A stretch of 47,847 nt of DNA from Acidimicrobiales bacterium (GTDB taxonomy: Bacteria > Actinomycetota > Acidimicrobiia > Acidimicrobiales > VFJN01). The notes under the pieces are model-generated. The model was not told the DNA's origin and made no database searches. It saw nothing but the letters and a program-made list of their open reading frames with translations. This document shows, one piece after another, positions 1-31,084 of this stretch. Location of the stretch: NCBI GenBank assembly GCA_030681555.1, contig JAUXRW010000031.1, positions 1-47,847 on the forward strand. The letters are read 5' to 3'. The position numbers and the translations under genes are program-made. Each line of letters starts with the position of its first letter. The first letter of the stretch is position 1.

Positions 1-519
1 CGTGGCCGGCTCGCGCTGGGCACCTCGTTCGCCCATCACGTGCAGCCGCAGCGCGCCGTGCGGCACCTGGGCGCCGACCTCGATGTCGTGGGGGATGCGG
101 TCCACCGCGTCGAGGTACTCGGCGATCGTCCTCCACTCCCAGCTCAGGCCCTCGTGGAGGGCGGCACCGGGGATGTCCTCCACGCCCTCCATGAGCTCGA
201 TCAGCCGTTGGTGATCCTCGGGCCGCACGGGAGCGAACCCCACACCGCAGTTGCCCATCACCACGGTCGTCACACCTTGCCAGGAGGACGGGGCGAGGTG
301 GTGGTCCCAGGTGGCCTGGCCGTCGTAGTGGGCGTGGATGTCGACGAAGCCGGGTGCCACCAGCGCCCCGTCGGCGGTGATCTCCCGCCGGCCCGCTCCG
401 ATCCGGCTGCCCATCTCGACGATGCGGTCGCCGTCGATGGCGATGTCGGCGGCGCGCGCGGGCGCCCCGGTGCCATCGACGACCGTGCCGCCACGGATGA
501 CGAGATCGAAGGCGTTCAC
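1..519 (-). CDS. N-acyl-D-amino-acid deacylase-family amidohydrolase, N-terminal part
   Basis: The gene runs off the left edge, leaving 173 N-terminal codons. Translation from the GTG gives an N-terminal beta-sandwich with [12 protein letters not shown], then a TIM-barrel entry with HAHYDGQ (His62, His64) and an MGNCG motif (Cys91). In D-aminoacylases and related amidohydrolases these positions hold metal-binding His and Cys residues. The family hydrolyses N-acyl-D-amino acids or similar cyclic amides in the cytoplasm; the substrate here is unknown. A GGGGAGGGG tract precedes the GTG. It is the last visible gene of a minus-strand operon, 52 nt after the amidohydrolase. The C-terminal half cannot be judged. 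Confidence 0.8.
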
Positions 520-571
520 GATCCGGCCCCTCCCCTCACGGGGGTTCCGGGTGGAGAGGTGACGGCCCCGC

Positions 572-3825: not shown

Positions 3826-5429
3826 CCGAGGGCTGGCACTACGGGAACCTGTGGGATGTCGCGGCGGAGGTCCGCGGCGACCAGCCGGCCCTCGTCCACG
3901 GCGAGCTCCGCCGGTCCTGGGCCGCCTTCCAAGCTCGCTCGGGAGCCTTGGCCGCGGCGCTGGTCTCGGGAGGCGCCCGTCGCGGTGACCGAGTGGCCCT
4001 CCACCTCCACAACAGCCCCGAGTACCTGGAAGGCGTCTATGCCACCTTCCAGGCGGGGCTCACGCCGGTCAACACCAACTACCGCTATCGCGGCGACGAG
4101 CTGACCTATCTCTGGGACAACGCCGATGCCGTAGCCGTGATCTTCCACGGGGCCTTCACCGACACCATCGCCGGCGTGCGCGATCGTGTGCCGGCCGTGC
4201 AGCGTTGGCTGTGGGTCGCCGACGGCACCGGCCCCTGCCCGCCGTGGGCAGCGCCCTACGAGGAGGTCGTGGCTGGCGGCGACGGGCCCTTCCTGGCGCC
4301 GTGGGGCCGAAGCGGAGACGACATCGTCATGATCTACACCGGTGGCACGACGGGGCTGCCCAAGGGCGTCATGTGGCGTCACCACGAGATGCATCGCGCC
4401 TTCTCGACATCGAATGACGGCGAGACGGCAGACCTGGCCGTGGCTCGCCAGCGCGTCGCCGCAGCCGAACGAGGCCCGGTCGGCCTCCCGGGATCGCCGC
4501 TCATGCATGCGACCGGGTTCATGTTCGCGGTCAGCACCCTCACCCAGGGCGGAACCGTCGTCACCCTGCCCAATCGCTCCTTCGATCCAGCGGCGCTGCT
4601 CGATGCGGTGGAGCGGGAGCGGGTGCAAGCGGTGGCCATCGTCGGAGACGCCTTCGCCCGCCCGCTGCTCGAGGTGCTCGAGAGAGACCGTGGCCGCCGG
4701 GATCTGTCCGCGCTGGCCATGCTGGTGTCGGCCGGGGTGATGTGGAGCGCGGACACGAAGGCCGCGCTGGCCGCTCACCTGCCCACGACGGCGCTCGTCG
4801 ACCTCCTCGGGTCGACCGAGGCCCACGGGCTCGGGTCGTCGGTCTCCGCGCCGGGAGCCGATCCCACAACCGCCCGCTTCCGACTCGGGCACCACGCCAT
4901 GGTCATCGACGAACAGGATCAGCCGGTCGGGCCCGGTCACACGGGGCTGCTGGCCGTCGGTGGGCCCTGCCCGGTCGGGTACCACAAGGACCCCGAGAAG
5001 ACGGCCCGGACCTTTCGCATGGTGGATGGGCAGCGCGTGTCCGTTCCTGGCGACTGGGCGGCCGTCGAGGACGACGGGTCCATCACCCTCCTCGGCCGTG
5101 GCTCCCTGTGCATCAACACCGGGGGGGAGAAGGTCTTCCCCGAGGAGGTCGAGGAAGCGCTCGAGACGCACCCCTGCGTGCGCGATTCCACCGTCGTGGG
5201 TGTTCCCGACACCGACCTGGGCGAGGCAGTGGCGGCCATCGTCGAGGTCGTCGACGGCGCGTCGACCACCCCGGAGGAGCTCATTGCCCACGTGAAGCAG
5301 CGCCTGGCCGGCTACAAGGCTCCCCGGCACCTGCTGTTCGTCCCCGACGTCGGTCGCTCCCCGAACGGCAAAGCCGACTACGGGGGTGCCCGCCGCTGCC
5401 TGCTCGACCACCTCGCCGCGGCCACCTGA
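3822..5429 (+). CDS. acyl-CoA synthetase (AMP-binding, ANL superfamily)
   Basis: A 535-aa adenylate-forming ligase. It shows the phosphate loop TGGTTGLPKG (173-182), a GSTE aromatic/adenine motif in the middle, GDW before the hinge region, and the C-terminal catalytic lysine in NGKADY (about 517). It activates a carboxylic acid to its acyl-CoA thioester via acyl-AMP. The start GTG 3822 overlaps the stop of the alcohol dehydrogenase gene, so the two are translationally coupled. Length is normal for the fatty or steroid side-chain acid ligase group. With the acyl-CoA dehydrogenase and thioesterase downstream it forms a plausible beta-oxidation-like module. The acid substrate cannot be assigned. 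Confidence 0.9.
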   Translation: MTEGWHYGNLWDVAAEVRGDQPALVHGELRRSWAAFQARSGALAAALVSGGARRGDRVALHLHNSPEYLEGVYATFQAGLTPVNTNYRYRGDELTYLWDNADAVAVIFHGAFTDTIAGVRDRVPAVQRWLWVADGTGPCPPWAAPYEEVVAGGDGPFLAPWGRSGDDIVMIYTGGTTGLPKGVMWRHHEMHRAFSTSNDGETADLAVARQRVAAAERGPVGLPGSPLMHATGFMFAVSTLTQGGTVVTLPNRSFDPAALLDAVERERVQAVAIVGDAFARPLLEVLERDRGRRDLSALAMLVSAGVMWSADTKAALAAHLPTTALVDLLGSTEAHGLGSSVSAPGADPTTARFRLGHHAMVIDEQDQPVGPGHTGLLAVGGPCPVGYHKDPEKTARTFRMVDGQRVSVPGDWAAVEDDGSITLLGRGSLCINTGGEKVFPEEVEEALETHPCVRDSTVVGVPDTDLGEAVAAIVEVVDGASTTPEELIAHVKQRLAGYKAPRHLLFVPDVGRSPNGKADYGGARRCLLDHLAAAT

Positions 5430-5438
5430 GGAGAGCCG

Positions 5439-5519
5439 GTGCCAACGACCGTGAGCTCCGCCGAGCGCAACCGCATCGTCCCCACGGGCGGCGCCGACCT
5501 CTACGCGCGCGACGCCTGA
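5439..5519 (+). CDS. small 26-aa ORF of unknown function
   Basis: A GTG at 5439 follows GAGGAG with a 5-nt gap and opens a 26-codon frame ending TGA at 5517-5519. It is squeezed between the acyl-CoA ligase (9 nt upstream) and the acyl-CoA dehydrogenase (2 nt downstream). I recognise no family. It could be a coupling peptide or the residue of a deleted gene. The ribosome-binding site and spacing are the only evidence. Confidence 0.35.
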   Translation: MPTTVSSAERNRIVPTGGADLYARDA

Positions 5520-5521
5520 AC

Positions 5522-6793
5522 GTGGCCGACTCTCTCGAGCCTGACGACATCCGGGCCGAGGTCCGAGCCTGGCTCGCCGACGCATGGGCCCCGGACCGCC
5601 CGCTCCGGGAGTGGCGGGCCGATCTGGCCGAGGCTGGTTGGGGTTGTCCCACCTGGCCCCGCCAGTGGTACGGGCGGGGGCTGCCAGCTGAGCTCGGGCG
5701 AGTCGTCGCCGAGGAGCTCCGCGCCGCCGGGGCCGTCGGGCCGGCCATCGGGGTGGGGATGTCCCTGGCTGCGCCGACGCTGCTGGCCCATGCGCCAGAC
5801 GACCTGAAGGTCCGCCTCTTGCGACCCATCGTGACCGGCGAGGACACCTGGTGCCAGCTCTTCAGCGAGCCCGGCAACGGGTCGGACCTGGCCGGTCTCA
5901 CCACCCGGGCTACCCGCGACGGCGACGAGTTCGTGGTCGAGGGCCAGAAGGTGTGGACGACCGGCGCCCACCACGCGGCCTACGGGATGCTGCTGGCTCG
6001 CACCGACTGGGACCTCCCGAAGCACAAGGGGATCACCTTCTTCGCCTTCCCGATGCGCCAGCCCGGGATCGAGGTGCGCCCGCTGCGCCAGATGAACGGT
6101 CGCGCCTCGTTCAACGAGGTGTTCCTCACCGAAGCCCGGGTACCGGTGGCCAACGTCGTGGGGGAGCTGCACGGCGGCTGGACCGTCGCGCTCACCACCT
6201 TGGCCCACGAGCGCGGCCTGGCGGCAGGGCTCTTCGGTGCGCTGCCGCCCAGCGGCGGGGGGCGCACCCGCGAGGAGGCGCGCGCCGAGGCCAGCGCCTA
6301 CCTCACGACCTACGAGTGGTATCCCCAGCGAGCGGGGCGCGCCGACCTCGTCCCGGTACGAGCCGTGGCCACGGGAGCGGCCGGGGATCCCGTCACCCGG
6401 CAAGTCGTCGCCCACCTGGCGGCGACGGAGCGAACGGCGCGGTGGACCGCCGAGCGGGCCTCAGCGGCCCGTCGCGCCGGTCGACCACCGGGGGCCGAGG
6501 GGTCGATCGGCAAGCTGGCGGCCAGCACCATCGCTCGGGAGGCGGCCGCCGCCCACGCCACCATCGCCGGCGCCGATGGCATGCTCACCGGCCCAGATTC
6601 GCCCGAGGGCGGGATCGTGGCCGAGGTGCTCGTGTCGGTGCCCGGGGCCTCGATCGCCGGCGGCACGGACGAGGTCCAGCACAACATCGTGGGGGAACGG
6701 GTCCTTGGTCTCCCCAAAGAGCCGTCGGTCGACGCCGACGTGCCCTTCCGCCAGGTCAAAGTGAATCGACGAGGAGCGAAGGAGGACCGATGA
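5522..6793 (+). CDS. acyl-CoA dehydrogenase family protein
   Basis: A 423-aa flavoprotein. Family signatures include the FSEPGNGSDLA substrate/FAD-binding stretch, EGQKVWTTGAH, and near the C-terminus GGTDEVQHNIVGERVLGLP, typical of actinobacterial FadE proteins of the cholesterol-catabolic type. It should introduce an alpha-beta double bond in an acyl-CoA using FAD. The GTG start 5522 is 2 nt after the small ORF, and the 3' end overlaps the next gene in ATGA. Only one subunit gene is present here, unlike the paired FadE heterotetramers of sterol side-chain degradation. It may therefore be homomeric or partner with a subunit encoded elsewhere. Confidence 0.9.
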   Translation: MADSLEPDDIRAEVRAWLADAWAPDRPLREWRADLAEAGWGCPTWPRQWYGRGLPAELGRVVAEELRAAGAVGPAIGVGMSLAAPTLLAHAPDDLKVRLLRPIVTGEDTWCQLFSEPGNGSDLAGLTTRATRDGDEFVVEGQKVWTTGAHHAAYGMLLARTDWDLPKHKGITFFAFPMRQPGIEVRPLRQMNGRASFNEVFLTEARVPVANVVGELHGGWTVALTTLAHERGLAAGLFGALPPSGGGRTREEARAEASAYLTTYEWYPQRAGRADLVPVRAVATGAAGDPVTRQVVAHLAATERTARWTAERASAARRAGRPPGAEGSIGKLAASTIAREAAAAHATIAGADGMLTGPDSPEGGIVAEVLVSVPGASIAGGTDEVQHNIVGERVLGLPKEPSVDADVPFRQVKVNRRGAKEDR

Positions 6794-7869
6794 AGGTCGG
6801 CGTGCAGATGGTGTTCCAGTCCTACGGCTACGGCCCGGAGGTGACCGACCGAGAGGTCGTGCGGGAGGAGGTGCACCTCGGGGTGCTCGCCGACGAGCTG
6901 GGCTTCGACGCCCTCTGGCCCGTCGAGCACCACTTCGCCGATTACGCGTTCTGTCCCGACAACACGCTCTTCCTCGCCCACATGGCGGCCCGCACGCAGC
7001 GCATCAGCCTGGGGACCGGGGCCGTCATCCTGCCGTGGAACGACCCCCTGCGGGTGGCCGAGCGGATCGCCCTGCTCGACAGCCTGGCTGAGGGCCGAGT
7101 GCTCTTCGGCGTCGGACGAGGTCTGGCCCGCAAGGAGTACGACGGGTTCGGTATCCCGATGGACGAGTCGCGCGAGCGCTTCGACGAGGCGGCCGCCATG
7201 GTGATCGACGCGCTGGAGACGGGCTGGATCGAGGGCAAGGGACCCTTCTACCCGCAGCCTCGCACGCCGATCCGCCCCGCCCCCGACCGCACCTTCCGCG
7301 ACCGGTTCTTCTGTGTGGCCATGTCCCCGGACTCGGTCCTCGCAGCGGCCGATCTCGGCGCCCGCATGGTGGTGTTCAGCCAGCGACCCTACGAGGACCA
7401 AGCTGTGGCGATGGCCACCTACCGGGAGCGCTTCATCGAGCGCCACGGCGGCCCACCAGGTCCACCGGTGACGTGTGACTTCGTCTACTGCGACACCGAC
7501 GCCGACCGGGCCGAGGCGAAGGCTCGGACCCACATCGCCGGTTACCTCACCAGCGTCATGCAGCACTACGAGCTGGCCTCGGAGCACTTCAAGGATGCCA
7601 AGGGCTACGAGTCCTATGGCGACGCCGTCGACCTGCTGCAGGCGATCGGTCTCGAGAAGATGTGCGAGATGTACCTCGGGGTCAACGTCTGGGGCACACC
7701 GGAGCAGATCCTCGAACGGCTGCGTCGACGCCGCGAGATCATCGGACCGTTCGACCTCACGGCCTGTTTCCGCTACGCCGGGCTCCCCTTGGAGGACGCC
7801 GAGCGCAGCATGCGTACCTTTGCCACCGAGGTGCTCCCCGCGCTGCACGACGACCTGGCGGTGGTCTGA
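6790..7869 (+). CDS. LLM class flavin-dependent oxidoreductase
   Basis: A 359-aa luciferase-like TIM-barrel protein. The N-terminal MKVGVQM strand, WPVEHHF (first barrel active-site region), the TGAVILPWNDPLRVAER segment and GVGRGLARKEYDGFG are typical of bacterial luciferase-like monooxygenases and F420- or FMN-dependent relatives. The ATG overlaps the acyl-CoA dehydrogenase stop (ATGA). It probably oxidises a ketone or CoA intermediate of this operon using a reduced flavin or F420. The cofactor cannot be told from sequence here. A larger paralogue-like protein is encoded at 21387-22754. Confidence 0.88.
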   Translation: MKVGVQMVFQSYGYGPEVTDREVVREEVHLGVLADELGFDALWPVEHHFADYAFCPDNTLFLAHMAARTQRISLGTGAVILPWNDPLRVAERIALLDSLAEGRVLFGVGRGLARKEYDGFGIPMDESRERFDEAAAMVIDALETGWIEGKGPFYPQPRTPIRPAPDRTFRDRFFCVAMSPDSVLAAADLGARMVVFSQRPYEDQAVAMATYRERFIERHGGPPGPPVTCDFVYCDTDADRAEAKARTHIAGYLTSVMQHYELASEHFKDAKGYESYGDAVDLLQAIGLEKMCEMYLGVNVWGTPEQILERLRRRREIIGPFDLTACFRYAGLPLEDAERSMRTFATEVLPALHDDLAVV

Positions 7870-10374: not shown

Positions 10375-10401
10375 GCGAGCACCAACTCGGAGGAAACGTG
10401 A
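10372..10401 (+). CDS. possible 9-aa upstream ORF of P450 paralogue 2
   Basis: ATG 10372 opens nine codons (MASTNSEET) closed by TGA at 10399-10401, overlapping the P450 ATG as TGATG. The P450 Shine-Dalgarno GGAGG (10389-10393) lies inside this ORF. It could be a coupling leader, or the residual start of a lost gene, since the ferredoxin gene also begins ATGGCG after the same upstream element. Confidence 0.25.
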   Translation: MASTNSEET

Positions 10402-11651
10402 TGACCGACACCACACCTGAAGCGGGCGTGCATTTTCGCACAGACGTAGTACAGGATTACGGGCCGGTGGGGGATTGGGCCACGGACTTCGACATCCTGG
10501 ATGAGGACTACGTCGTGCACCCGGAGCGCCGGTGGGACGAGCAGCGAGAGCGTTGCCCCATCGCCCTCACGCAGCGCCGCCAGCGTACCTGGCTTCCCGT
10601 ACGCTACGAGGACCTCTCAGAGATCGCCCACGACGTGGAGCGGTTCTCCTCGCGGGACATCACCGTCGTCTCGCCGTTCGACCAGCCGCTCAACGACCTC
10701 ATGCCAGTTCCGCCGATCAGCTCTGACCCGCCCGTGCACACCTGGGCCCGGCGGCTGCTGTTGCCGGCCTTCGGACCGTCGGCCGTCGAGCAGATGACCC
10801 CCATCACCCGAGCGTTGTCGATCAAGCTGATCGAGGAGCACTTCTCCGATGGAGGCGGAGACGCCGCGGCGGACTACGCCCGCCACATCCCCGTGCGCAT
10901 CATCGCCCAGATGCTCGGCATTCCCCTGGAGGACGAGGACAAGTTCACGGGCTGGGTGGTGCGCACGCTGCAGAACGGCTTCCAGAACATCGATGGCGCC
11001 ATGGACGCCCTCGGCGAGATGACCATGTACTTCTCCGGCAAGATCGCCGAGCGCCGGGCCATGCCCCAAGGTTCGCGGCCCGACGACGTGCTCACCATGC
11101 TCATCGAGGCCGAGACCGAAGAGCCTATGAGCGACAGCCATCTCTTCGGAAGCGTCTTCCTGCTCCTCATCGCGGGCATCGACACCACTTGGAGTGCGAT
11201 CGGATCCTCCCTCTGGCACCTGGCCACGCACCCGGAGGACCAGCAGCGGCTGCGGGACAACCCGGCGCTGATGCCGAGCGCGGTGGAGGAGTTCCTTCGG
11301 GTCTACAGCCCGGTCACGATGGCCCGGTACGTCACCCAGGACACCGAGTTCCAGGGATGTCCCATGCGGGAGGGCGACAAGATCCTGATGGCCTTCCCGG
11401 CCGGCAACCAGGATCCAGAGATGTTCGAGGACGCCGATCAGGTGCGCATCGACCGCCAGAAGAACCGGCACTTCGCGTTCGGCGCCGGCATCCATCGCTG
11501 TCTTGGGTCGAACCTCGCCCGCATGGAGATGAAGGTCGCAGTGGAGACGTTCCTCGAGCGGGTCCCGACCTTCGAGCTCGCCGATCCCGCCGCCGTCACC
11601 TGGACCGGCGGCCAGGTGCGTGGCCCGCGGTGCGTGCCGATCCGCTACTGA
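10401..11651 (+). CDS. cytochrome P450 (paralogue 2 of 3)
   Basis: A 416-aa P450. It has AGIDTT in the I helix, an EEFLR ExxR motif and FGAGIHRCLG with Cys367 as haem ligand. Compared with paralogue 1 it has a longer N-terminus (EAGVHFRTDVVQDYGPVGDW) before the common DFDILDEDYVVHPERRW block. GGAGG lies 7 nt before ATG 10401; a GTG immediately upstream (10398) is an alternative start. It is divergent from paralogue 1 across a 232-bp region and followed by a convergent thioesterase gene. No ferredoxin is adjacent, so electrons must come from a protein encoded elsewhere, perhaps the ferredoxin at 20821-21027. Confidence 0.93.
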   Translation: MTDTTPEAGVHFRTDVVQDYGPVGDWATDFDILDEDYVVHPERRWDEQRERCPIALTQRRQRTWLPVRYEDLSEIAHDVERFSSRDITVVSPFDQPLNDLMPVPPISSDPPVHTWARRLLLPAFGPSAVEQMTPITRALSIKLIEEHFSDGGGDAAADYARHIPVRIIAQMLGIPLEDEDKFTGWVVRTLQNGFQNIDGAMDALGEMTMYFSGKIAERRAMPQGSRPDDVLTMLIEAETEEPMSDSHLFGSVFLLLIAGIDTTWSAIGSSLWHLATHPEDQQRLRDNPALMPSAVEEFLRVYSPVTMARYVTQDTEFQGCPMREGDKILMAFPAGNQDPEMFEDADQVRIDRQKNRHFAFGAGIHRCLGSNLARMEMKVAVETFLERVPTFELADPAAVTWTGGQVRGPRCVPIRY

Positions 11652-11688
11652 CAGCCGAGGCGGCTACGGCACGCTGGCGTGCCGAGCA

Positions 11689-12369
11689 CTAGGAGACCTG
11701 GAATCGTTCGAGGTCCACGGTGATGAACACCGCGTGGGCCCGGACGAACACCCGGCCTTCGGCAGTGCCCGTGCAGGAGATGAACAGCTTGCGGCGCTCC
11801 CGCCGCTCCAACCAGGCGCGGAACTCGATCGCCTCGCGCATCGGACAGGGTCCCTCGTACCGCAGCGAGAGCTCGCCGGTGAACGCCATCTCACCGATGA
11901 GGGGAAGCAGGCCGCCGATGGTCTCGTCCACGCATGCGGCGACGATCCCGCCGTGTGCGCGCCCGGGTGCGCCCTCCCAGCCGTCCTGGAGGGTGACCAC
12001 CCCGATCGCGGCCTCGCCGTCGTGGCCGACGCGGAGCCCCATCGTGAGCGGGTTGGCGGATCCGGACACGGGAGAGTCGTGGAACATGTCGATGAACGCG
12101 CCATCCTCGACCACCTCCCCGAGGGCCCGGCCCTCGAGGATGGCACGGGCCAACCGAGGACTCCCCGCCACCTCGCCGCCCCTGTCTCGGCGCGGCTCCG
12201 CCTCGATCTCCGATGCGAGCCGGGCGGCCTCATCGGCGATCCGGCGCAGGACGCCAGGATCGGCGCGGTGGCCCACCAGGGCGTGGCTGAGCCGGTTCAG
12301 TGCCGCAGCCGCATCGACTCGGTTCGCCAGATCGGTCTCGTCACCGAAGCAGGGCGGTGCGCTCGTCAT
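11689..12369 (-). CDS. hotdog-fold (PaaI-like) thioesterase with N-terminal extension
   Basis: A 226-aa protein. The C-terminal half is a hotdog domain with RAHGGIVAACVDETIGG as the active-site helix. The first ~90 residues are an Ala/Arg/Glu-rich helical region with no family I recognise. It probably hydrolyses an acyl-CoA. ATG 12369 is preceded by a weak AGG; the true start could be slightly different. It converges with the P450 at 10401-11651 and is divergent from the exported protein at 12546. Confidence 0.8.
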   Translation of the reverse strand: MTSAPPCFGDETDLANRVDAAAALNRLSHALVGHRADPGVLRRIADEAARLASEIEAEPRRDRGGEVAGSPRLARAILEGRALGEVVEDGAFIDMFHDSPVSGSANPLTMGLRVGHDGEAAIGVVTLQDGWEGAPGRAHGGIVAACVDETIGGLLPLIGEMAFTGELSLRYEGPCPMREAIEFRAWLERRERRKLFISCTGTAEGRVFVRAHAVFITVDLERFQVS

Positions 12370-12545
12370 CACCTGAGTCTGTCCGACGTGCGGTCCGCAG
12401 GCCGAACCGTCGCACCTCCACGAGGTGGCCTCGCGCCCTCGAATGTCTCTCGCTGAGCAGGAAATCGCCAATGTGTGGCGAATGCACTTGAGACAACGTA
12501 TCGTCGTCGTGTCGGTTCTCTGCCGACGATCGTCCGGGGGGACCG
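12370..12545. promoter_or_regulatory. divergent intergenic region with TCGCCA/TGGCGA inverted repeat
   Basis: A 176-bp divergent region between the thioesterase and the transporter operon. A 6-bp inverted repeat, TCGCCA-N5-TGGCGA (12465-12481), is followed by TTGAGA (12488-12493), a -35 candidate for the plus operon, with no convincing -10. A repressor site for either gene is plausible but unproven. Confidence 0.3.
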
Positions 12546-14006
12546 ATGGGCCACAACACTTGGCGTACTCGCTACCGGCGGGTGGCTGCGGCCGGAGCAG
12601 CGGCGGTGGTCCTCTTCGCCATCGCGGCCCAATTTCCCCGGGCGGTCGCCCAGGAGCCGGCCCCGGAGGACCCCCCGACAGCAGACACGGCCAGCTCCGG
12701 TGACACGGCCAGCTCCGGTGGCGAGACGCTGGCGCTGGCCAACGGGCAGCTCCTCGTCGTCGCGCCCTTTGCCGGGGGGCTCGCCTTGCCGGTGAAGGTG
12801 GGCACCTCCGGGGCCCGGGTGCGGGGCCAGTCGGCGACCGCGTCCTCGGCCGTGCTCGACCTGGGACTGGTCGGCGAGCTGGGCCTCCTGGCTGTGGCCA
12901 ACAGCCCGACACTGCAGCGCCTCGGCATCGATACCTCGGACGCGGCCCGCTACACGCCTCTGCCACGACCGGTGACGGCCGACTCACGAGCAGAGGTAGA
13001 GGTCGACCGCCGCCTGGCCCTCGACGCTGCCCGCCTGGGCCCGCTCGTCGTTGGCGCCGGGCACGAGACGGTACGGGCCCCGGAGGGGGGGCCGGCCGTG
13101 AGCCGAACCGAGCTGGCGGACCTCGACCTCGATCTCGGCCTCGTCCGCATCAAGTTGGCGGGGGGTGTCGCCGAGACGAGCGCGAGCTCGACGGACGCTC
13201 GCGGCACGATCGCCTTCGGCGAGTTCCGCGTGGACAGCGCCGGGGCGCCGCTGGTGCTGCTCCGGGGCATCGAATGGAACGTCGAGCAACAGCTCGGCGC
13301 CGAACCGGTGGCGGCGTTCAGCCTCGGAACCGCACACGTCGCCGGCGTGCCGTTCGCAGCGCCCGGGGCCGAGGACCTGGCGGTCCTCGGCACGCAGATC
13401 AACGACCTGCTCGCGCCATCAGGGCTGTCGCTCCAGCTGCCGACGGTCACGGCCGACGGCGTGAGCTCCTTGCGGCTCATGGCGCGTGACTCCCCGGCCG
13501 CCTTCCAGTACCTGAACCCGGTGTACTCCGTGGCGTTGGCCGAAGCCGTCAACCAGGCCGAGGCGGCGCTGGTCGGTGGCGTGCCGGAGACCGGGCTGGC
13601 CGTCACGGTGGCCAACGTCGTGCTCGCCGCCGCGACCGGGAGGGGCGGTCTTTCCCTCGACCTCGGCGGCCTCACCGTCGACGTCGCCCGAACGCCCGTG
13701 GAGTCGTATGCGTACGCGTCGTCGCCGTCAGCGGGCCCTGCGCAACCCTCAGCTCCGCCCGGTCCGCGACCGGCATCCAGCACGAACCGGATCCCCGCCG
13801 CCACCGCCGCGCCTGGGCCCGCGCCAACCCCGGCCGACTCGGCCCGACCGCCGGCGGCCCCCGTGGCCGACGCCGTCGCGACGGTGGCGTCGGTGGCGAC
13901 CGAGGACCTGCCGGCGGCGCTCGTGCTCGGACTGGGCGCCGCCGCCATTGCGGCGGCTGCGGTCGCCGATCGCCGCCGCATCGCCGACTGGGAGGCGCCA
14001 CCGTGA
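12546..14006 (+). CDS. exported, C-terminally anchored protein of unknown function
   Basis: 486 aa. The N-terminus has basic residues (RTRYRR), a hydrophobic stretch at about 13-30 and an AVAQ-EP signal-peptidase-like site near 36. A low-complexity Pro/Ala/Thr linker spans about 390-440. A C-terminal hydrophobic helix (LVLGLGAAAIAAAAVA) is followed by Arg-rich residues, as in a cell-surface anchor. The middle is beta-rich with no recognisable domain; VDLGLVRIKLAGG-type segments alternate. Its stop overlaps the substrate-binding protein start (GTGA), so it should serve the same uptake system, for example as a surface capture or docking protein. It contains a 2 x 18-bp tandem repeat at 12684-12719. 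Confidence 0.75.
   Translation: MGHNTWRTRYRRVAAAGAAAVVLFAIAAQFPRAVAQEPAPEDPPTADTASSGDTASSGGETLALANGQLLVVAPFAGGLALPVKVGTSGARVRGQSATASSAVLDLGLVGELGLLAVANSPTLQRLGIDTSDAARYTPLPRPVTADSRAEVEVDRRLALDAARLGPLVVGAGHETVRAPEGGPAVSRTELADLDLDLGLVRIKLAGGVAETSASSTDARGTIAFGEFRVDSAGAPLVLLRGIEWNVEQQLGAEPVAAFSLGTAHVAGVPFAAPGAEDLAVLGTQINDLLAPSGLSLQLPTVTADGVSSLRLMARDSPAAFQYLNPVYSVALAEAVNQAEAALVGGVPETGLAVTVANVVLAAATGRGGLSLDLGGLTVDVARTPVESYAYASSPSAGPAQPSAPPGPRPASSTNRIPAATAAPGPAPTPADSARPPAAPVADAVATVASVATEDLPAALVLGLGAAAIAAAAVADRRRIADWEAPP
12684..12719 (+). repeat. 2 x 18-bp tandem repeat within the exported protein gene
   Basis: GACACGGCCAGCTCCGGT occurs twice in tandem and in frame, encoding repeated DTASSG just after the signal peptide. 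It looks like slippage in a flexible linker. Confidence 0.9.
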
Positions 14007-15655
14007 GACCCGTAGCCGGCCGCGACGTTCCGAAGCTCATGCTCGGCGGCTATCTCCCGCTCGCCGCGTTCCTGGTGGTGTGCGCCCTGCTCGTCGCCTT
14101 CGTGCCCAGCGTCCCACCGACCGACACCGCCGTCGGGGCCGTCGGTGGCGGCGGTGTCGACGCTGCTGGGCCATCGCAAGGCTCTGCTGGTGGTTCCGGC
14201 CCGGACGGGGCGACCGCCACCACGGTGGGCGGCGCCGCGGCCTCCGGCCCGATGGCGCCACCGGCAACCCCGGGCGGCACGGTGGCACTGGCCGACACCT
14301 GCGCCGGAGGCGACCGCCAGACGCGCGAGCCCTACTCCCCGCCGTGCATCACCTTCGAAGGCGACAACGGGGGCGCCACCGCCCCGGGTGTCACCGCCGA
14401 CACCATCACCGTCACCTTCCGTGAAGGTGATCTACCCAGCGTGTACGCGGTGGCCGGGCAGGTGGCCGAGAAGGCCAACATCCGCGACACCCAGGACGAC
14501 ATCCGCCGCACCATCGAGGCCTACGCCGACTACTTCAACGAGCACTTCCAGATGTACGGCCGCCGGGTCGAGATAAAGTTCTTCAAGGGCCAGGGCGACC
14601 AGCTGAGCGAGTTCTTCGGCGGCGGGGCCGAGGGCGCCAACGCCGACGCCATCCAAGTCGCCCAGGAGATCGGCGCGTTCGCCGACCTGTCGGTCCTCAC
14701 CACCCCGTACGCCGAGGCGCTCGTCCGTCAAAAGGTCGTGGCGATCCCGCCCGTGCACATGTCGCAGCGTTGGTACGACGAGCACGCCCCCTACGCCTAC
14801 GGCGTGCTCGTCGACTGCTCGAGGTTGGCGTCGTCGTTCGTGGACTGGACCATGAAGCGGCTCTGGGGCCGGCCGGCCCAGTACGCGGGCGACCCCGCGC
14901 TCCGCGGCCAGGAGCGACGCATCGGCCTCATCGTTCCCGAAGAACCCTGGTACCAGGAGTGCGGCAACTCCGGGACTGCGGAGCTCGAAGCTCGGGGCGG
15001 CGCGTTCGCGCATCGCATCAACTACACGCTCGACTTCCAACGACTGTCGCAGGAAGCGGCCGGGATGATCGCCCAGATGAAGGATCGCGGCGTCACCACC
15101 GTGGCCTGCATATGCGACCCGGTGCTGCCGCTGTTCCTCACGACCCAGGCGACCCAGCAGGAGTACCGGCCAGAGTGGGTGGTCACGGGCAGCGCGCTCA
15201 CCGACGTGGACCTCCTGGGCCAGATCTACGACCCCGAGCAGTGGCGCCACGCCTTCGGGATCAGCTTCCTCAACGACATCCACCAGGGAGTGCGGTCGGA
15301 GTCCTACCGCGCCTACCGGGCCGTTCGCGACGACGAACCGGCGTTCATCCACGACATCCTGTACTACCCGATGCTGATCATGTTCCTCGGCGTGCACCTC
15401 GCGGGGCCGGAGCTGACCGCCCAGACGTTCCAGCAGGGACTCTTCTCGTACCCACCGACCTCTGGGGAGACCGGTCGCTGGTCCTTCAGCCCGGGCGACC
15501 GCACCGCAACCGACGACGCTCGGGAGATCTACTGGGACCCCAACGCGGTGTCGCCGTTCAACGGCGAACCCGGCCGCTGGATCACCACCCTGGAGGGCAA
15601 CCGCTACATCACCGACTGGCCCGAAGGCGACGCGGTGTTCCCGATCACGCCGTGA
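14003..15655 (+). CDS. ABC-transporter substrate-binding protein (branched-chain amino acid/LivK-like), membrane-anchored
   Basis: 550 aa. A single N-terminal hydrophobic segment (about 13-33, GGYLPLAAFLVVCALLVAFV) has no clear cleavage or lipobox Cys, so the protein is probably anchored. A Gly/Ala/Thr linker leads to a periplasmic-binding-type domain starting near residue 125 (GVTADTITVTF). The rest matches type I binding proteins of the Leu/Ile/Val family, which in actinobacteria often bind bulky carboxylates or sterols instead of amino acids. GTG 14003 overlaps the previous stop. It is followed directly by the fused permease and ATPase genes, so it should deliver the ligand to them. Confidence 0.85.
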   Translation: MRPVAGRDVPKLMLGGYLPLAAFLVVCALLVAFVPSVPPTDTAVGAVGGGGVDAAGPSQGSAGGSGPDGATATTVGGAAASGPMAPPATPGGTVALADTCAGGDRQTREPYSPPCITFEGDNGGATAPGVTADTITVTFREGDLPSVYAVAGQVAEKANIRDTQDDIRRTIEAYADYFNEHFQMYGRRVEIKFFKGQGDQLSEFFGGGAEGANADAIQVAQEIGAFADLSVLTTPYAEALVRQKVVAIPPVHMSQRWYDEHAPYAYGVLVDCSRLASSFVDWTMKRLWGRPAQYAGDPALRGQERRIGLIVPEEPWYQECGNSGTAELEARGGAFAHRINYTLDFQRLSQEAAGMIAQMKDRGVTTVACICDPVLPLFLTTQATQQEYRPEWVVTGSALTDVDLLGQIYDPEQWRHAFGISFLNDIHQGVRSESYRAYRAVRDDEPAFIHDILYYPMLIMFLGVHLAGPELTAQTFQQGLFSYPPTSGETGRWSFSPGDRTATDDAREIYWDPNAVSPFNGEPGRWITTLEGNRYITDWPEGDAVFPITP

Positions 15656-17859
15656 CCCGCTCTCGGACGTTCGACGTCGTCGACCCTCGCTGGCGGGTCC
15701 CGATGGCCCTCGCCGCCGCGGCGGTCGCCTGGGCAGTCCTCGCACGTGTCCTCCCGCACGGCATGCCCGTCGGCATCGTCGTGCTCGGCGCGGTCCTCGG
15801 GTCCTTGACCGGGCTGTCAGCGGTGGGACTCGTGCTCGTCTACCGGGCCAGCCGGGTCGTGAACTTCGCCCAGGCATCCCTCGGGTCGGCCGCGGGGGTG
15901 CTGGCCATCCTCGTGTTCATCTCGTGGGGATGGAACTACTTCCTGTGTCTCGTGCTCGGGCTGGCGGCGGCATCCGCGACCGGCGCGGCCGTCGACCGGC
16001 TGGTGATCCGCCGGTTCTTCTGGGCGCCGCGGCTCATCCTCACGCTGGCGACGATCGGCTTGGCGCAGGTGCTCGGCGGGGTCGAGCTCGGTCTCCCGAG
16101 CCTCTTCAACCAGCCCTTGGTGACCAACTCGTTCCGGACGCCTCTATCCGCGAGCTTCACCCTCGACCCGGTCCTGTTCACCGGCAACCACGTTTTGATC
16201 CTCGTGGCAGTCCCGATCGTCGCCGGGGCGCTGGCCTGGTTCCTGACCCGCACGTCGCTCGGCGTGGCGATCCGCGCCGCGTCGGAGAACGCCGAGCGGG
16301 CGATGGTGCTCGGGATCCCCGTCCGGCGCCTGTCAACGGTGGTGTGGGCCGTGGCCGGCGGGCTGTCGGCGCTGGCGATCATGCTCACTGCGCCGATCCA
16401 GGCGTTGCCGCCCACGGTGCTGTCGGGACCGTCGCTGCTGCTGCCGGCTCTGGCCGCTGCGGTGGTCGCTCGGATGGAGCACCTCGCCCGAGCCTTCTTC
16501 GCCGGCATCGGCATTGGCATCCTCCAGCAGGTGACGTTCTGGACCACGTCACGCTCCTCGGCCACCGACGTGGCGTTCCTGGTCGTGATCATGGTGGCGC
16601 TGCTGACCCAGCGCGACCGACTGTCGCGGGCCGACGACGCTGCCGCCTCGAGCTGGGTCTCGGCCGCCGAGGCGACACCGGTCCCGACCGAGCTGCGCGA
16701 CCTGCCCGAGGTGGTGTGGGCCCGGCGGGCCGTGCTGGCCACCGTGGCCGCGGCTGCGCTGGCCGCCCCGGCGATGCTGTCGGTGAGCCAGGTCAGCCTG
16801 GTGGGCACGGTGGCGTTGATCTACGCCCTCATCGGGGTGTCGCTCGTGGTGCTCACCGGCTGGGCAGGCCAGCTGAGCCTCGGCCAGTTCGCCCTGGCCG
16901 GCGTGGGCGGCGTCGTGGCCGCCAACCTCCTCGACGGCGACACGGACCTGCTGCTCGTCCTCGCCGGGGCCTGGGTCGGCGGGGCCGCCGGCGCCCTCCT
17001 CGTCGGCCTCCCGGCGCTGCGCATACGCGGGCTGTTCCTCGGCGTGACCACCCTGGCCTTGGCGGTGGCGATGTCCACCTACTTCCTCAACCCGAGCTAC
17101 TTCCCGGAGTGGCTCCCATCGGACCTCGAACGGCCGGTGGTGCTCACCCGCTTCGACCTCGCCGATGAGACCACCCTCTACTACTTCACCCTCCTCGTGG
17201 TGATCGCTGGCGCATGGGCTGCCCGCAACCTGCGCCATAGCCGCCTGGGCCGGTTGCTCGTCGCGGTGCGAGACAACGAGCGGGCCGCCCGCGCCCGGGG
17301 CATCGACGCCACGAAGATCAAGCTTTCAGCGTTCATCTTCAGCGGGGGACTCGCCGGGGTCGCCGGAGGGCTGCTCGTGCTGGCGCTCCTCACCGTCGGC
17401 TCGGGGACGTTCGCAGCCAAGCAGAGCTTCGACGCCTTCAGCATGGTCGTCGTCGGCGGCATGACCTCCGTCTCAGGGGCCGTGGTCGGCGCCTTCGTGC
17501 TCCGCTGGACGCAGTACGCCATCGGCGGGTCGCTCCAGCTGATCGTCACCGGGGCCGGCGTTCTGGCGCTGCTCCTGGCGTTCCCGGGCGGGGTCGGTCA
17601 GCTGCTGACCAGCGCCCGCGACCGCTACCTCCGCGCCGTCGCAGCACGGCGAGGATTGGTGGTCCCGAGCCTGATCGCCGACATGGCGCTGCCCGAGGCC
17701 TCGGCGCCGCCGGCGCGTCGCCTCGAGGACCTTCTGGGCTCTCGCCGTGCCGGCGAGCCGTCGACAGTGGCAGAGGTCGAAGGGCTGCGCCGGGAGGGTG
17801 CCGAGCTGCGGCAGCGGCTGGAGGAACTCGAGCGCGCCGTCCAGCGGGGACCGACGTGA
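15652..17859 (+). CDS. fused LivH-LivM ABC-transporter permease
   Basis: 735 aa combining both membrane subunits normally encoded by two genes. Residues ~25-325 match LivH (GLSAVGLVLVYRASRVVNFAQ, then IRAASENAERAMVLGIP, the coupling-loop EAA-like segment). Residues ~365-660 match LivM (LTGWAGQLSLGQFALAGVGG and LRIRGLFLGVTTLALAVA, with AVRDNERAARARGID as the second coupling loop). The last ~75 residues are cytoplasmic and end in a short coiled coil (VEGLRREGAELRQRLEELE). Both ends overlap neighbours in GTGA. It should form the whole transmembrane pore for the ligand of the preceding binding protein. Confidence 0.9.
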   Translation: MTRSRTFDVVDPRWRVPMALAAAAVAWAVLARVLPHGMPVGIVVLGAVLGSLTGLSAVGLVLVYRASRVVNFAQASLGSAAGVLAILVFISWGWNYFLCLVLGLAAASATGAAVDRLVIRRFFWAPRLILTLATIGLAQVLGGVELGLPSLFNQPLVTNSFRTPLSASFTLDPVLFTGNHVLILVAVPIVAGALAWFLTRTSLGVAIRAASENAERAMVLGIPVRRLSTVVWAVAGGLSALAIMLTAPIQALPPTVLSGPSLLLPALAAAVVARMEHLARAFFAGIGIGILQQVTFWTTSRSSATDVAFLVVIMVALLTQRDRLSRADDAAASSWVSAAEATPVPTELRDLPEVVWARRAVLATVAAAALAAPAMLSVSQVSLVGTVALIYALIGVSLVVLTGWAGQLSLGQFALAGVGGVVAANLLDGDTDLLLVLAGAWVGGAAGALLVGLPALRIRGLFLGVTTLALAVAMSTYFLNPSYFPEWLPSDLERPVVLTRFDLADETTLYYFTLLVVIAGAWAARNLRHSRLGRLLVAVRDNERAARARGIDATKIKLSAFIFSGGLAGVAGGLLVLALLTVGSGTFAAKQSFDAFSMVVVGGMTSVSGAVVGAFVLRWTQYAIGGSLQLIVTGAGVLALLLAFPGGVGQLLTSARDRYLRAVAARRGLVVPSLIADMALPEASAPPARRLEDLLGSRRAGEPSTVAEVEGLRREGAELRQRLEELERAVQRGPT

Positions 17860-19538
17860 CCGCCGCGGCTGCGCCGCAGCACCCGTCCCCGCTCCTGCGG
17901 TGCCGGGACATCGAGGTCCGCTACGGGCAGGTCCAGGTCCTCTTCGGGGTCGACCTCGACGTCCACGAAGGCGAGATCGTGGCGTTGCTCGGCACCAACG
18001 GCGCAGGAAAGTCGACGCTCCTTCGAGCGGTGACGGGGCTGACCCCGCCGTCGGCAGGTACCGTCGAGCTCGACGGGCAGCCGGTGACCGGTGCCGACCC
18101 CGCCGAGCTCGCCGCCCGCGGCGTGGGCTTCATGCCTGGCGGGCGTGCCGTGTTCCCGGGCCTGAGCGTCCGGGAGAACCTGGAGCTGGCGGCCTGGCTG
18201 TACCGCGACGATCGCCGACGGGTCGACGCCGCCATCGACGGGGCCTTGGAGCTGTTCCCCGCGCTACGGGCCCGCCTCGGCGAGCGCGCCGCGCTGTTGT
18301 CGGGCGGCCAGCAGCAGATGGTGGCGCTGGCTCAGACGCTCGTCGCCGAGCCCCGCCTGCTCCTGCTCGACGAGCTGTCCCTGGGCCTGGCGCCGGTGGT
18401 CGTGGGCCAGCTGCTCGAGGTGGTGCGTGACCTGCGTGACCGTGGTCTGACCGTTCTGCTCGTGGAGCAATCGGTCAACGTCGCGCTCGACGTCGCCGAC
18501 CGGGCCGTCTTCATGGAGAAGGGCGAGGTCCGCTTCAGCGGGGCCGCCGCCGACCTCCGAGGCCGCGATGACCTGCTGCGCTCGGTCTTCATCGGCCGAG
18601 GTGAGAGCGACGGCGTCGCCCGCGATGCCGCCCGGACGTGGGTGCCCACGTCGGCGGAGCCGGTGCTCACGGCGCGGGGCATCGGGTGCAGCTTCGGCGG
18701 GGTCCGGGCGGTCGCCGACGTCGATCTCGACGTCGGCGACGGGGAGATCGTGGGCATCCTCGGGGCCAACGGCGCCGGCAAGACCACGCTGCTGGACCTG
18801 CTCTCGGGGTTCGTGACTGCGGACCAGGGCATCGTGCGCCTGGCCGGTGAGGACGTCACCGAGCTCCCCCCGCACCGACGAGCGACGATGGGGCTGGCCC
18901 GCACGTTTCAGGACGCCCGTCTCTTCCCGGGGCTGACCGTGGCCGAGAACCTGCAGGTCGCCCTCGATGGTGAGGCCTTCACCCACGACCCGGTGGCCGC
19001 CACCCTGCGGCTCCCGCCGGCCATCCTCACCGAGATCCTGCTCGGCGAGCGAGCCGAGGCGCTCATCGTTGCCCTCGGTCTCGAGGCCTTCCGCGACAAG
19101 AGGGTGTCCCAGCTCTCCACCGGGTCGCGTCGGGTCGTCGAATTGGCCTCCCTGGTCGCTCAAAACGCCCGGGTGCTGCTGCTCGACGAGCCGTCGGCGG
19201 GGATCGCGCAGCGCGAGGCCGAAGCGCTCGGACCCCTGCTGCGCCGCCTGCGGGACGCCACGGGATCGGCGCTGGTGATCGTCGAGCACGACGTCGCGCT
19301 GCTGCGCTCGACCTGTGACCGCCTGGTCGCCATGGACCTCGGTGCGGTCATCGCCGTCGGACCGCCCGACGAGGTCCTTGCCGACCCGCTCGTGGCCACC
19401 GCCTACCTCGGTTCGAACATCGTCGCCGTGGAGCGCTCGGGAAAGGGCAGGCGCCGTCAGCCGCTTCGTTCGTCGGGTGGCAACGCCCGTCCGACGGGTG
19501 GCGGCAGCGTGGCGGCGGCCTCGAGCCCTCGACGGTGA
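17856..19538 (+). CDS. fused LivF-LivG ABC-transporter ATPase
   Basis: 560 aa with two nucleotide-binding domains in F-then-G order. Domain 1: Walker A GTNGAGKST (46-54), signature LSGGQQQ (148-154), Walker B LLLLDE (168-173). Domain 2: Walker A GANGAGKT (303-310), signature LSTGS (420-424), Walker B ending DE (444-445). The second signature departs from LSGGQ, so the two ATP sites may differ in activity. A basic tail of about 30 residues (KGRRRQP) follows. It drives import through the fused permease encoded just upstream, which it overlaps by 4 nt. The operon ends 51 nt before a convergent P450 gene. Confidence 0.92.
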   Translation: MTAAAAPQHPSPLLRCRDIEVRYGQVQVLFGVDLDVHEGEIVALLGTNGAGKSTLLRAVTGLTPPSAGTVELDGQPVTGADPAELAARGVGFMPGGRAVFPGLSVRENLELAAWLYRDDRRRVDAAIDGALELFPALRARLGERAALLSGGQQQMVALAQTLVAEPRLLLLDELSLGLAPVVVGQLLEVVRDLRDRGLTVLLVEQSVNVALDVADRAVFMEKGEVRFSGAAADLRGRDDLLRSVFIGRGESDGVARDAARTWVPTSAEPVLTARGIGCSFGGVRAVADVDLDVGDGEIVGILGANGAGKTTLLDLLSGFVTADQGIVRLAGEDVTELPPHRRATMGLARTFQDARLFPGLTVAENLQVALDGEAFTHDPVAATLRLPPAILTEILLGERAEALIVALGLEAFRDKRVSQLSTGSRRVVELASLVAQNARVLLLDEPSAGIAQREAEALGPLLRRLRDATGSALVIVEHDVALLRSTCDRLVAMDLGAVIAVGPPDEVLADPLVATAYLGSNIVAVERSGKGRRRQPLRSSGGNARPTGGGSVAAASSPRR

Positions 19539-19589: not shown

Positions 19590-20795
19590 CTACCAGCGCA
19601 CGGGCAGCCGCCGTGGGCCGCGGACCTGGCCACCTGTCCACACGACGGCGTCGGGGTCGGCCAGCTCGAAGGTGGGCACCCGTCGTAGCCACTCCTCGAG
19701 GGCGACTCGCAGCTCCATGCGGGCCAGATTCGACCCGAGACACCTATGGATCCCGGATCCGAAGGCGAAGTGGCGGTTGCGGGCTCGGTCGATCACGAAC
19801 TTGTCGGCGTCCTCGAACATCTTGGGGTCGCGGTTGCCGGCAGGGAAGGTCATGAGGACCTTGTCGCCCTTGCGCATCGGGCACCCCTCGAAGTCAATGT
19901 CTTCCGGCACGTAGCGGGCCATGGTGACCGGGCTGTAGAAGCGGAGGAACTCCTCCACCGCCGTGGTCATGAGCTCGGGCTCGGCTCGTAGGCGGGCCTG
20001 GTCCTCGGGGTTGGCGGCGAGGTGCCAGAGGCTCGAGCCGATGGCGCTCCAGGTCGTGTCGATGCCGGCAAGCAGCAGCAGGAAGCACGAACCGATCACG
20101 TGGCGGTCGGTGAGCGGCTCACCGTCGACCTCTGCTTCGACGAGCAGGGTGAGCAGGTCGGCGGGCCGTTCGCCCGGCGGCACGGCGCGACGCTCTGCTG
20201 CGCGCTCGCCGAAGTAGGTGATCAGCTCCATCACCGACCCGATGGCGTGGTTGATGTTGGTGAGGCCTTCCTGGAGGATCACCACGGCCCAGCGGGTGAA
20301 GGTCTCCTCGTCGTCGAGAGGGACACCGAGCATCTGGGCGATGACCCGGACCGGGACGTGCTGCGCGTAGTCGCTGGCGGCGTCGGCCTCACCGCGTTCG
20401 ATGACCCCGTCGATCAGCCCGTTGGCCACGTCTCTCGTCACGGGGGTGACCGCGTCGATGGCACTCGGCCCGAAGGCCGGCAGGAGGAGACGACGAGCCC
20501 AGGTGTGCACCGGGGGATCCGAGGTGATCGGAGGGGCCTCGAGCATGATCGTCGCGGTGGGATCGAGTTCGCGATTGGGGGTGATCACGGCGATGTCACG
20601 AGAGGAGAAGTGCTCGACATCGTGCGCGATCTTGGCGATGACCTCGTACTCGACCGGCATCCAGGTGCGCCCGTAGCGTGTGGTCTGGGCGACGGGGCAC
20701 ACCCCCCGGAGCTGGGACCAGATGCTGGCCGGGTCGAGAATGTAGCGAGGGTCGAGGATGTCGAAGTCGGCGGCCCAGTCGGTGGTTGTGCTCAT
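19590..20795 (-). CDS. cytochrome P450 (paralogue 3 of 3), ferredoxin-linked
   Basis: A 401-aa P450 with AGIDTT, an EEFLR ExxR motif and FGSGIHRCLG with Cys352 as haem ligand. It lies 25 nt downstream of a ferredoxin gene on the same strand, so the two should be co-expressed and work together. AAAGGA precedes the ATG. It differs from the other two mainly in the B-C region (TPNRELDPTATIMLEAPP) and D-E loop, which usually shape substrate choice. Its last 20 codons match the fossil at 39411-39470. Confidence 0.93.
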   Translation of the reverse strand: MSTTTDWAADFDILDPRYILDPASIWSQLRGVCPVAQTTRYGRTWMPVEYEVIAKIAHDVEHFSSRDIAVITPNRELDPTATIMLEAPPITSDPPVHTWARRLLLPAFGPSAIDAVTPVTRDVANGLIDGVIERGEADAASDYAQHVPVRVIAQMLGVPLDDEETFTRWAVVILQEGLTNINHAIGSVMELITYFGERAAERRAVPPGERPADLLTLLVEAEVDGEPLTDRHVIGSCFLLLLAGIDTTWSAIGSSLWHLAANPEDQARLRAEPELMTTAVEEFLRFYSPVTMARYVPEDIDFEGCPMRKGDKVLMTFPAGNRDPKMFEDADKFVIDRARNRHFAFGSGIHRCLGSNLARMELRVALEEWLRRVPTFELADPDAVVWTGGQVRGPRRLPVRW

Positions 20796-25687: not shown

Positions 25688-27262
25688 TCACGAGTTGGCG
25701 GTGCGGAGGCGCTTGCGGATGAGCTCCCGGCGAGCCTGCAGGTCGGCGTAGCTGAGATCGTCCTCGGGGAGGCCCAGCGAGCGCTTGATGCTGTCGAGGT
25801 CGACGACCAGGTCGCTGGCGTCGATGCCGGCCTCGCGGGCCAGGCGCTCCCCGTGGGTCTCGGTGAAGTAGGTCGAGATCTCCATGATCTCGGCGAACAG
25901 GTCCATCTGGGGGGCGTGCAGCGCGATGGCCCCGTCGAGGAACAGCATGTTCTTCACGAACAGCATCAAGGGCTTGGGAAGGCGGGCGCCATAGCCAAGA
26001 AGCGCCTTCATGAGGTGCTGCAGCTCACCCATGAGCTCTTCGGCCGACATGGCGGTCGGGTCGGCCAACGGCTTATCGAGCCCAAGGTCGGCGATCACCG
26101 CGTCCAGATCGGTGTCGGGCGGCAGCGCACCGAGGTCGCGCAGGGCTGCCAGCTGGCCGGAGACGTCGTTGACCCCGCCGGCCACGAGGAGGCGCACGAA
26201 CCCAAGTCGGTTGGTGTCGTCGAGCCGGCCGGTCATGCCGTAGTCGAGCAGTGCGATCCGGCCGTCACCTTGGATGAAAAGGTTCCCCCCGTGGAGGTCA
26301 CCGTGGAACACGCCGTTGAACAGCGCACCCTCGAGGAACGCGATCAGGGTGGCCCGCAACATGGCCGTGGCGTCGATCCCTGCGTCACGGACGCCGTCGA
26401 CGTCGTCGAACGCGTAGCCGTCGAGCCGCTCCATCACCAGCACCCTGGCGGTGACCAGCTCAGGGTGGGGGCGCGGCACCACGATGATTCGCTGGCCCGC
26501 CTCGGACAGGACGTGCGCGATGTCGAGCATGTTCTCCGCCTCGAGGCGGAAGTCGAGCTCCTCGAGGATGGTCTCAGCGAACACCTCGACGAGCGCGGGC
26601 GGGTTGGCCAGCGCGGTGACGGGGATCCGGCCGATCAGGTGCGGTGCGATCCACGACATCGCCTTGATGTCGCGTCGCACGAGCTGCTGCACCTGCGGGC
26701 GCTGGACCTTGACCACCACCTCCTCACCCGTGTGCAGCGTGGCCCGGTGCACCTGGGCGATGGATGCCGCGGCGACCGGCGTGGGCTCGAAGGTGCTGAA
26801 GACGGCCTCGATCGGTTGGCCCAGATCGGCCTCCACGACCGTTCGGACCGTGCTGAAGGACTCGGCGGGCACGCGGTCGCGGCACCGCTTGAACTCCTCC
26901 ACCAGGTACTCAGGGAATAGCCCCTGGCCCGAGGAGATGATCTGGCCGAGCTTGATGTAGGTGGGACCGAGCGCCTCGAAGGCTTCGCGGAGGCGGCGGG
27001 AGAGCCCGGCGCCGGAGATCTCGGCACCCTTGCGCCGATCGAGGAGCCACCAGGTCATCAGCGCACGGGACAGGCGGACGCCCGTGACGACGAAGCGCCC
27101 CAGCGGGGGCACCAGGCGCCGTCGCATGAGCACGGGGACCTCCGCCCGGGCGGCATCGCGCAGGGCGCCGAGATCATGCCGCCACGCCAGCGCATCGGGG
27201 CGGATCTCCCACGGCGGGTGCTCGCTGAACGCGCCGATGGCCAGGTCCCCAGGAGGCATCAT
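25688..27262 (-). CDS. ABC1/UbiB family atypical kinase (canonical)
   Basis: A 524-aa UbiB-type protein. It has the KxGQ motif in YIKLGQIIS (Lys104, Gln107), the Ala-rich loop AAASIAQVHRA (164-174), VKVQRP (184-189), HGDLHGGN (320-327) and LLDYG (338-342), so all ABC1 kinase-like motifs are intact. Members bind ATP and support quinone or isoprenoid lipid handling rather than protein phosphorylation. It is the first gene of the esterase-P450 operon and reads from a promoter only 8 nt before the ATG, so it is likely leaderless. A role in moving or extracting hydrophobic substrate is an inference. Confidence 0.92.
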   Translation of the reverse strand: MMPPGDLAIGAFSEHPPWEIRPDALAWRHDLGALRDAARAEVPVLMRRRLVPPLGRFVVTGVRLSRALMTWWLLDRRKGAEISGAGLSRRLREAFEALGPTYIKLGQIISSGQGLFPEYLVEEFKRCRDRVPAESFSTVRTVVEADLGQPIEAVFSTFEPTPVAAASIAQVHRATLHTGEEVVVKVQRPQVQQLVRRDIKAMSWIAPHLIGRIPVTALANPPALVEVFAETILEELDFRLEAENMLDIAHVLSEAGQRIIVVPRPHPELVTARVLVMERLDGYAFDDVDGVRDAGIDATAMLRATLIAFLEGALFNGVFHGDLHGGNLFIQGDGRIALLDYGMTGRLDDTNRLGFVRLLVAGGVNDVSGQLAALRDLGALPPDTDLDAVIADLGLDKPLADPTAMSAEELMGELQHLMKALLGYGARLPKPLMLFVKNMLFLDGAIALHAPQMDLFAEIMEISTYFTETHGERLAREAGIDASDLVVDLDSIKRSLGLPEDDLSYADLQARRELIRKRLRTANS

Positions 27263-30873: not shown

Positions 30874-30945
30874 GTTCGGCCTCCGGTCGTCTCTCTCGTT
30901 CGCGGCCCGGCGACGCACGGACCGCGCATTGCACATCGGGACGTA

Positions 30946-30956
30946 GTTGTCACAAC
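30946..30956. promoter_or_regulatory. GTTGT-C-ACAAC palindrome upstream of the monooxygenase
   Basis: A perfect odd palindrome in an AT-richer patch about 73 nt before the monooxygenase ATG. A repressor site is plausible; no -10/-35 pair could be placed with confidence. Confidence 0.35.
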
Positions 30957-31084
30957 GATACACATCCGAAGCCACGGGGCCGCCACGGCGTTCCAGAACG
31001 CTGAGCTGCTTGCGGCTACGCCGAGCTGCTGAGGGCCGCCGGGCCGCGGCACCCATCGAGCGTTCAACCGCACCATGACGATCG

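Follow-up and report, generated by a model that had tools for sequence, protein, structure and literature searches.

Importers of the LIV type are taken to have five parts, which in the LIV-I system of the HAAT class are LivJ(K), LivH, LivM, LivG and LivF. Among importers of bulkier compounds, CamABCD of Rhodococcus jostii RHA1 is an ABC importer of cholate metabolites (PMC8399759).

Here we analyze a locus from an Acidimicrobiales genome in which the usual components are preceded by an additional exported protein, designated U. Our main reading, to which we assign a probability of about 0.55, is that the genes at 12546-19538 form a single operon encoding a LIV-type (HAAT, TC 3.A.1.4) importer whose six functional parts are distributed over four genes. 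U is inherited with the other three and the ATPase is asymmetric; the substrate-binding protein (SBP) would deliver the ligand to the permease with the help of U. Our literature search, on the choice-of-anchor family name, on LIV systems of Acidimicrobiia and on accessory proteins of ABC importers, returned no description of such a component.

Gene organization and transporter core

The window, i.e. the whole stretch of DNA that was analyzed, has 47,847 nucleotides and represents an entire contig (C135) of a 3.28 Mb genome, which is 98% complete and consists of 162 contigs. All four ORFs of the locus were verified at the coordinates in Table 1. A previous sequence-only reading had proposed that five Liv components are packed into three genes and that three successive GTGA overlaps join the genes, and both statements were confirmed.

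Table 1. Features of the operon and its immediate flanks (window coordinates in nucleotides; residue numbers marked aa)
Feature	Position	Strand	Remarks
Cytochrome P450, upstream	10398..11651	+	85% identical fragment precedes the homologous operon in L038
4HBT thioesterase, upstream of U	11689..12375	-	Same-strand ORF, 71% identical, at this place in L038
U, exported protein	12546..14006	+	486 aa; AF2 model, topology, homologues upstream of SBPs
Parts of U	aa ~13-36; aa 60-389; aa ~390-455; aa 455-474		Signal peptide; beta-rich core; Pro/Ala-rich linker; TM followed by DRRR tail
GTGA stop/start overlap, U-SBP	14003..14006	+	4 bp; sequence
SBP (P0002)	14003..15655	+	Topology, alignment, fold model
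Parts of SBP	aa 12-34; to aa ~91; aa ~130-540		N-terminal TM anchor; disordered linker; type I PBP fold
GTGA overlap, SBP-permease	15652..15655	+	4 bp; sequence
Fused LivH-LivM-type permease (P0003)	15652..17859	+	735 aa; two BPD_transp_2 domains
GTGA overlap, permease-ATPase	17856..17859	+	4 bp; sequence
Fused LivF-LivG-type ATPase (P0004)	17856..19538	+	560 aa; two NBDs
NBD1 signature LSGGQ	18297..18311	+	Walker A 17991-18017; H-loop position Gln (VEQS) 18459-18473
NBD2 signature LSTGS (aa 420-424)	19113..19127	+	Walker A 18762-18788; H-loop VEHD 19281-19292
Cytochrome P450, convergent with ATPase gene	19590..20795	-	64% identical to the upstream P450

In Pfam, the permease matches BPD_transp_2 (PF02653) in two stretches (169.5 bits), and the ATPase has two ABC_tran stretches together with a LivG-type C-terminal motif (BCA_ABC_TP_C, 30.8 bits versus a cut-off of 25.5). 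The SBP had no significant match in Pfam or NCBIfam, and searching the sequences of solved structures with the SBP and U profiles was not productive. In its AlphaFold model (built with 43 relatives, pLDDT 80.7), the SBP adopts the type I fold of periplasmic binding proteins, with a Foldseek E of 2.5e-16 and a Z of 24.4 across 340 residues. Cys100 and Cys115 are invariant in the alignment (A5). We read the protein as tethered, since an N-terminal TM segment is followed by predicted disorder to about residue 91. The best structural matches, nearly tied in Z, include binding proteins for hydroxybenzoate, vanillate, GABA and leucine. With two permease domains, two NBDs and a type I PBP (by model fold), the locus belongs to the LIV-type or HAAT class (TC 3.A.1.4).

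Asymmetry of the ATPase

The second ATPase signature had been described as atypical. The LSTGS motif is indeed present, but it is a clade-wide trait and not unusual among relatives: in every relative with readable motifs, NBD2 has LS[TS]G[ST] (with EH in all but one of them) and NBD1 carries LSGG[EQ], DELS and EQ (one unrelated NBD in L080 aside). NBDs dimerize head to tail, with the signature of NBD2 facing the nucleotide of NBD1. Because of this geometry, LSTGS and the absent H-loop histidine share one site.

The difference between the two NBDs resembles the motif pattern of LivF and LivG, and the LSTGS/Gln combination would then be a further step of a known asymmetry rather than a peculiarity of the window copy. 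ATP would probably be hydrolyzed mainly at the canonical site, made up of the Walker motifs and histidine of NBD2 opposite LSGGQ of NBD1. The other site, with the Walker motifs of NBD1 and glutamine opposite LSTGS, would be degenerate if the same LivF/LivG pattern applies.

Association of U with the transporter

Most of the 20 regions around the best SBP relatives had a U homologue directly upstream, in four-gene as well as three-gene (all-in-one) versions of the operon. Named genomes were also scanned and yielded 49 loci, of which five (cut before the upstream gene) and four (distant SBPs) were set aside. Among the remaining 40 assessable loci, U was found directly upstream of the SBP gene and on the same strand in 37, often with overlapping start and stop codons. 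The three exceptions (L079, L080 and L087) are close relatives. In the L080 operon, a different small exported protein (6815-7663) precedes the SBP. In L065 (6247-9374), a single U gene is followed by two tandem SBP genes.

We also searched 395 genomes of the class with a U profile, scoring four candidates per genome, so that the count of genomes is a lower bound. The SBP gene was next on the same strand for 25 of the 26 distinct U genes found; the last one is cut off by a contig edge. Thus, no clear U homologue occurred without the transporter where the flank was readable, so that the survey proposed with the sequence-only reading speaks in favor of that reading. The wider SBP family, present in 91 of 198 genomes of the order, is commoner than U. 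U implies the transporter, and the transporter does not imply U.

Two further operons of the own genome illustrate both situations. L001 (contig C86) has the same four-gene set with a 487-aa U paralogue (30% identity over the best-matching region, E 8e-7). In L002 (contig C3), the SBP is followed by a single 1355-aa chain that combines the two permease halves with the two ATPase halves, and there is no U. The absence of U from this paralogous operon and from the three exceptions above shows that not all transporters of this kind require it. The end of the all-in-one gene of L002 is overlapped by the gene for P0012 (13119-14207), an exported, C-terminally anchored protein of 362 aa. BLAST detected no homology to U, and P0012 may be an analogue of the U component. 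An ABC1/UbiB-type atypical kinase gene lies just after this operon (14247-15623); the window itself contains four genes of this type (25688-27262, 33536-35218, 35394-36776 and 46038-47477).

In 29 loci, distances between U proteins correlated with those of the SBP, permease and ATPase (Mantel r 0.77, 0.80 and 0.74, respectively) nearly as well as the core transporter parts correlated among themselves (0.80-0.87), and none of 2000 permutations exceeded 0.30. The mean distance of U was about twice that of the SBP. The correlations show joint inheritance of U and transporter, and alone they are no evidence of contact.

More distant U-like proteins were sought in other Actinomycetota with a profile over the beta domain (positions 141-298). 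Matches over the linker and TM (positions 350-475) were dropped as low-complexity. The U-like proteins found through the beta domain adjoined LIV permease or NBD genes in 5/5 cases, and the same applied to L159 and L195-L198. Other weak matches to the family model (L199-L201, L203-L205, L209 and L210) were not beside LIV genes. The U-like gene had no fixed position: it followed the ATPases, preceded the permease, or lay between the two kinds of gene, which suggests either repeated association or an old association followed by rearrangement. In L159 (2489-7491), a LIV-type operon of the own genome, the ATPase and permease genes are separated by one for a choice-of-anchor P protein (4097-5635).

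We regard it as highly probable that U genuinely belongs to the transporter system. An alternative is that the locus has an ordinary LIV function, i.e. that it imports branched-chain amino acids or small aromatic acids, with U as a structural surface passenger. The nearly equal similarity of the SBP to binding proteins for such compounds would fit, as would the surroundings of L001, which lies outside a catabolic island and near aminotransferase, CMAS and Cys/Met PLP-enzyme genes. We nevertheless consider this explanation unlikely, as U is co-inherited at nearly the correlation of the core parts, as LIV operons with other gene orders again contain U-like proteins, which would not be expected of a passenger, and as the window and L038 share the P450 and thioesterase context described below.

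Topology, fold and family of U

U was expected to be exported and anchored at its C-terminus, and the topology agrees: a hydrophobic signal is located at the N-terminus, and the protein ends in a TM and a basic tail. The TM is present in all 38 aligned family members, with at least three basic residues behind it in 37. A sortase-like motif occurs in one of the 38, and the anchor is a plain TM. In the AF2 model (mean pLDDT 76, above 90 for much of the core), U forms a large structure of antiparallel beta strands, with helices beyond residue 275. Comparison of this model with solved structures yielded weak similarity to parts of beta barrels (best Foldseek hit: E 4e-3, TM-score 0.14). We attribute the hits to outer-membrane barrels, with Foldseek TM-scores near 0.1 and VIA-align Z mostly 6-7, to generic long antiparallel strands and do not take them to indicate a pore. 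As there is no confident structural match, the role of U is not readable from its fold.

The sequence-only reading had placed U in no known family. This holds for the window protein when it is searched alone against Pfam and NCBIfam, including the choice-of-anchor P model NF040603 (curated cut-off 27 bits), but not quite for its relatives: 9 of the 38 family members match NF040603 weakly (best E 7.5e-5). In the NF040603 search, the paralogous U reached 25.8 bits, just under the cut-off, and three family members had 16-18 bits. Based on the weak matches and the paralogue below the cut-off, we class U as a remote, fast-evolving relative of choice-of-anchor P and not as a member.

These similarities raise the possibility that U is a choice-of-anchor P-type adhesin or wall protein, co-transcribed with the transporter for envelope reasons and without a role in transport. 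Apart from the profile scores, including that of the paralogous U, the data speak against it. LIV genes were found within 1.5 kb of none of 29 classical choice-of-anchor P proteins (the thirtieth locus was U-like), in contrast to U and U-like proteins, and the anchor is a plain TM, a sortase-like motif being confined to a single member. We regard this explanation as quite improbable.

Genomic context and ligand

The window carries four of the seven P450s of the genome, and three of them (64-74% identical) flank the operon. Other genes of the window encode SCP2-type thiolases, thioesterases, luciferase-like monooxygenases, an acyl-CoA ligase and a carboxylesterase, as well as a weak SCP2 domain (20.4 bits, just under the cut-off). 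A Baeyer-Villiger monooxygenase (29041-31056) is PtlE-like (734.7 bits versus a cut-off of 1100), and its closest solved relative is 5mq6 (E 4e-126), which we take to be polycyclic ketone monooxygenase (PKMO). The closest solved P450s did not indicate a P450 substrate, as P450cin, a reconstructed CYP125 ancestor and macrolide P450s scored alike.

The order P450, thioesterase, U, SBP, permease and ATPase (10398-19538 in the window) is kept in L038 (G134:C43, 3-9836), which belongs to a second family of the order. Identity is 85% for the P450 and 71% for the ORF on the thioesterase strand, and only 43-52% for the transporter proteins (SBP 43%). A nitronate monooxygenase gene is inserted within the otherwise conserved order. 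In L058, a luciferase-like enzyme (~60% identical) is encoded upstream of U, with one gene, for a short-chain dehydrogenase, in between. A Pfam tally of 128 neighbors around relatives revealed mixed genes and no conserved catabolic context.

The earlier interpretation is supported in part, and its suggestion of a bulky hydrophobic ligand, drawn from a sterol/terpenoid-type island, is plausible. The island (P450s, Baeyer-Villiger and luciferase-like monooxygenases, thiolases) and the synteny in the second family favor a bulky cyclic hydrophobic ligand, whereas the varying context and the lack of two steroid markers do not. We would give a hydrophobic cyclic compound as ligand of the window copy slightly less than an even chance. 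The data support this link for the window branch, and we do not extend it to the whole family. Steroid 9,10-seco degradation was assessed by two markers: the 98%-complete, 162-contig genome has no true 3-ketosteroid 1-dehydrogenase (best 103 bits versus a cut-off of 788) and no BphC/HsaC-type extradiol dioxygenase. Import of steroids (sterol or bile-acid metabolites), similar to CamABCD-mediated re-uptake of cholate metabolites (PMC8399759), is very improbable given these two absences, even though P450s, SCP2-type thiolases, the weak SCP2 domain and the PKMO-like enzyme would suit it.

Proposed mechanism

According to sequence and model, the SBP is held by its N-terminal TM and about 60-90 disordered residues, and U is an exported, beta-rich domain held at the membrane by its C-terminal TM. 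The SBP would capture a small-to-medium hydrophobic, probably cyclic and oxygenated compound and pass it to the permease. U would be located beside the permease and might aid ligand capture or hand-over, or dock the SBP. A role of U in capture or hand-off is a tentative suggestion. It is more doubtful still that U is a dedicated sixth component in a large class of actinobacterial LIV-type importers, with the tethered beta domain binding poorly soluble ligands and shuttling them through the envelope to the SBP. Such an action of U in LIV-type importers is not described in the literature that we found.

A sixth part from an undescribed family of its own, inherited with the transporter across Acidimicrobiia and recurring with LIV operons in other Actinomycetota, would offer a handle on how uncultured actinobacteria may import hydrophobic cyclic compounds. 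Moreover, many hypothetical proteins could be named at once through the U family.

Comparison with known systems

CamABCD is comparable as an actinobacterial ABC importer tied to the degradation of bulky alicyclic compounds (PMC8399759); it differs in that the window genome is devoid of the two steroid pathway markers. Choice-of-anchor P proteins share export, a C-terminal anchor and the weak profile match with the U family, but U is below the family cut-off, much diverged, and sits in LIV operons.

The urea importer UrtABCDE is similar in that the permease halves score as UrtB/UrtC, NBD1 as UrtE and NBD2 as UrtD. Membership was rejected: UrtE alone passes its equivalog cut-off (331.9 bits for NBD1), UrtD is below its own, and the permease is far under those of UrtB and UrtC. 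The locus also differs from Urt by its fusions, its other SBP and the presence of U.

With LIV-I, the locus shares the two BPD_transp_2 domains, the LivF- and LivG-like NBD motifs and the type I binding protein. In contrast to LIV-I, the permease halves are fused and so are the ATPase halves (in some relatives, all four halves form a single chain of about 1250-1350 aa), the SBP is carried on an N-terminal TM and a long linker and is missed by Pfam, and the NBD2 signature is LS[TS]G[ST]. The locus thus represents an ordinary class of transporter in which subunits are fused and a widespread component, the anchored beta protein U, is added.
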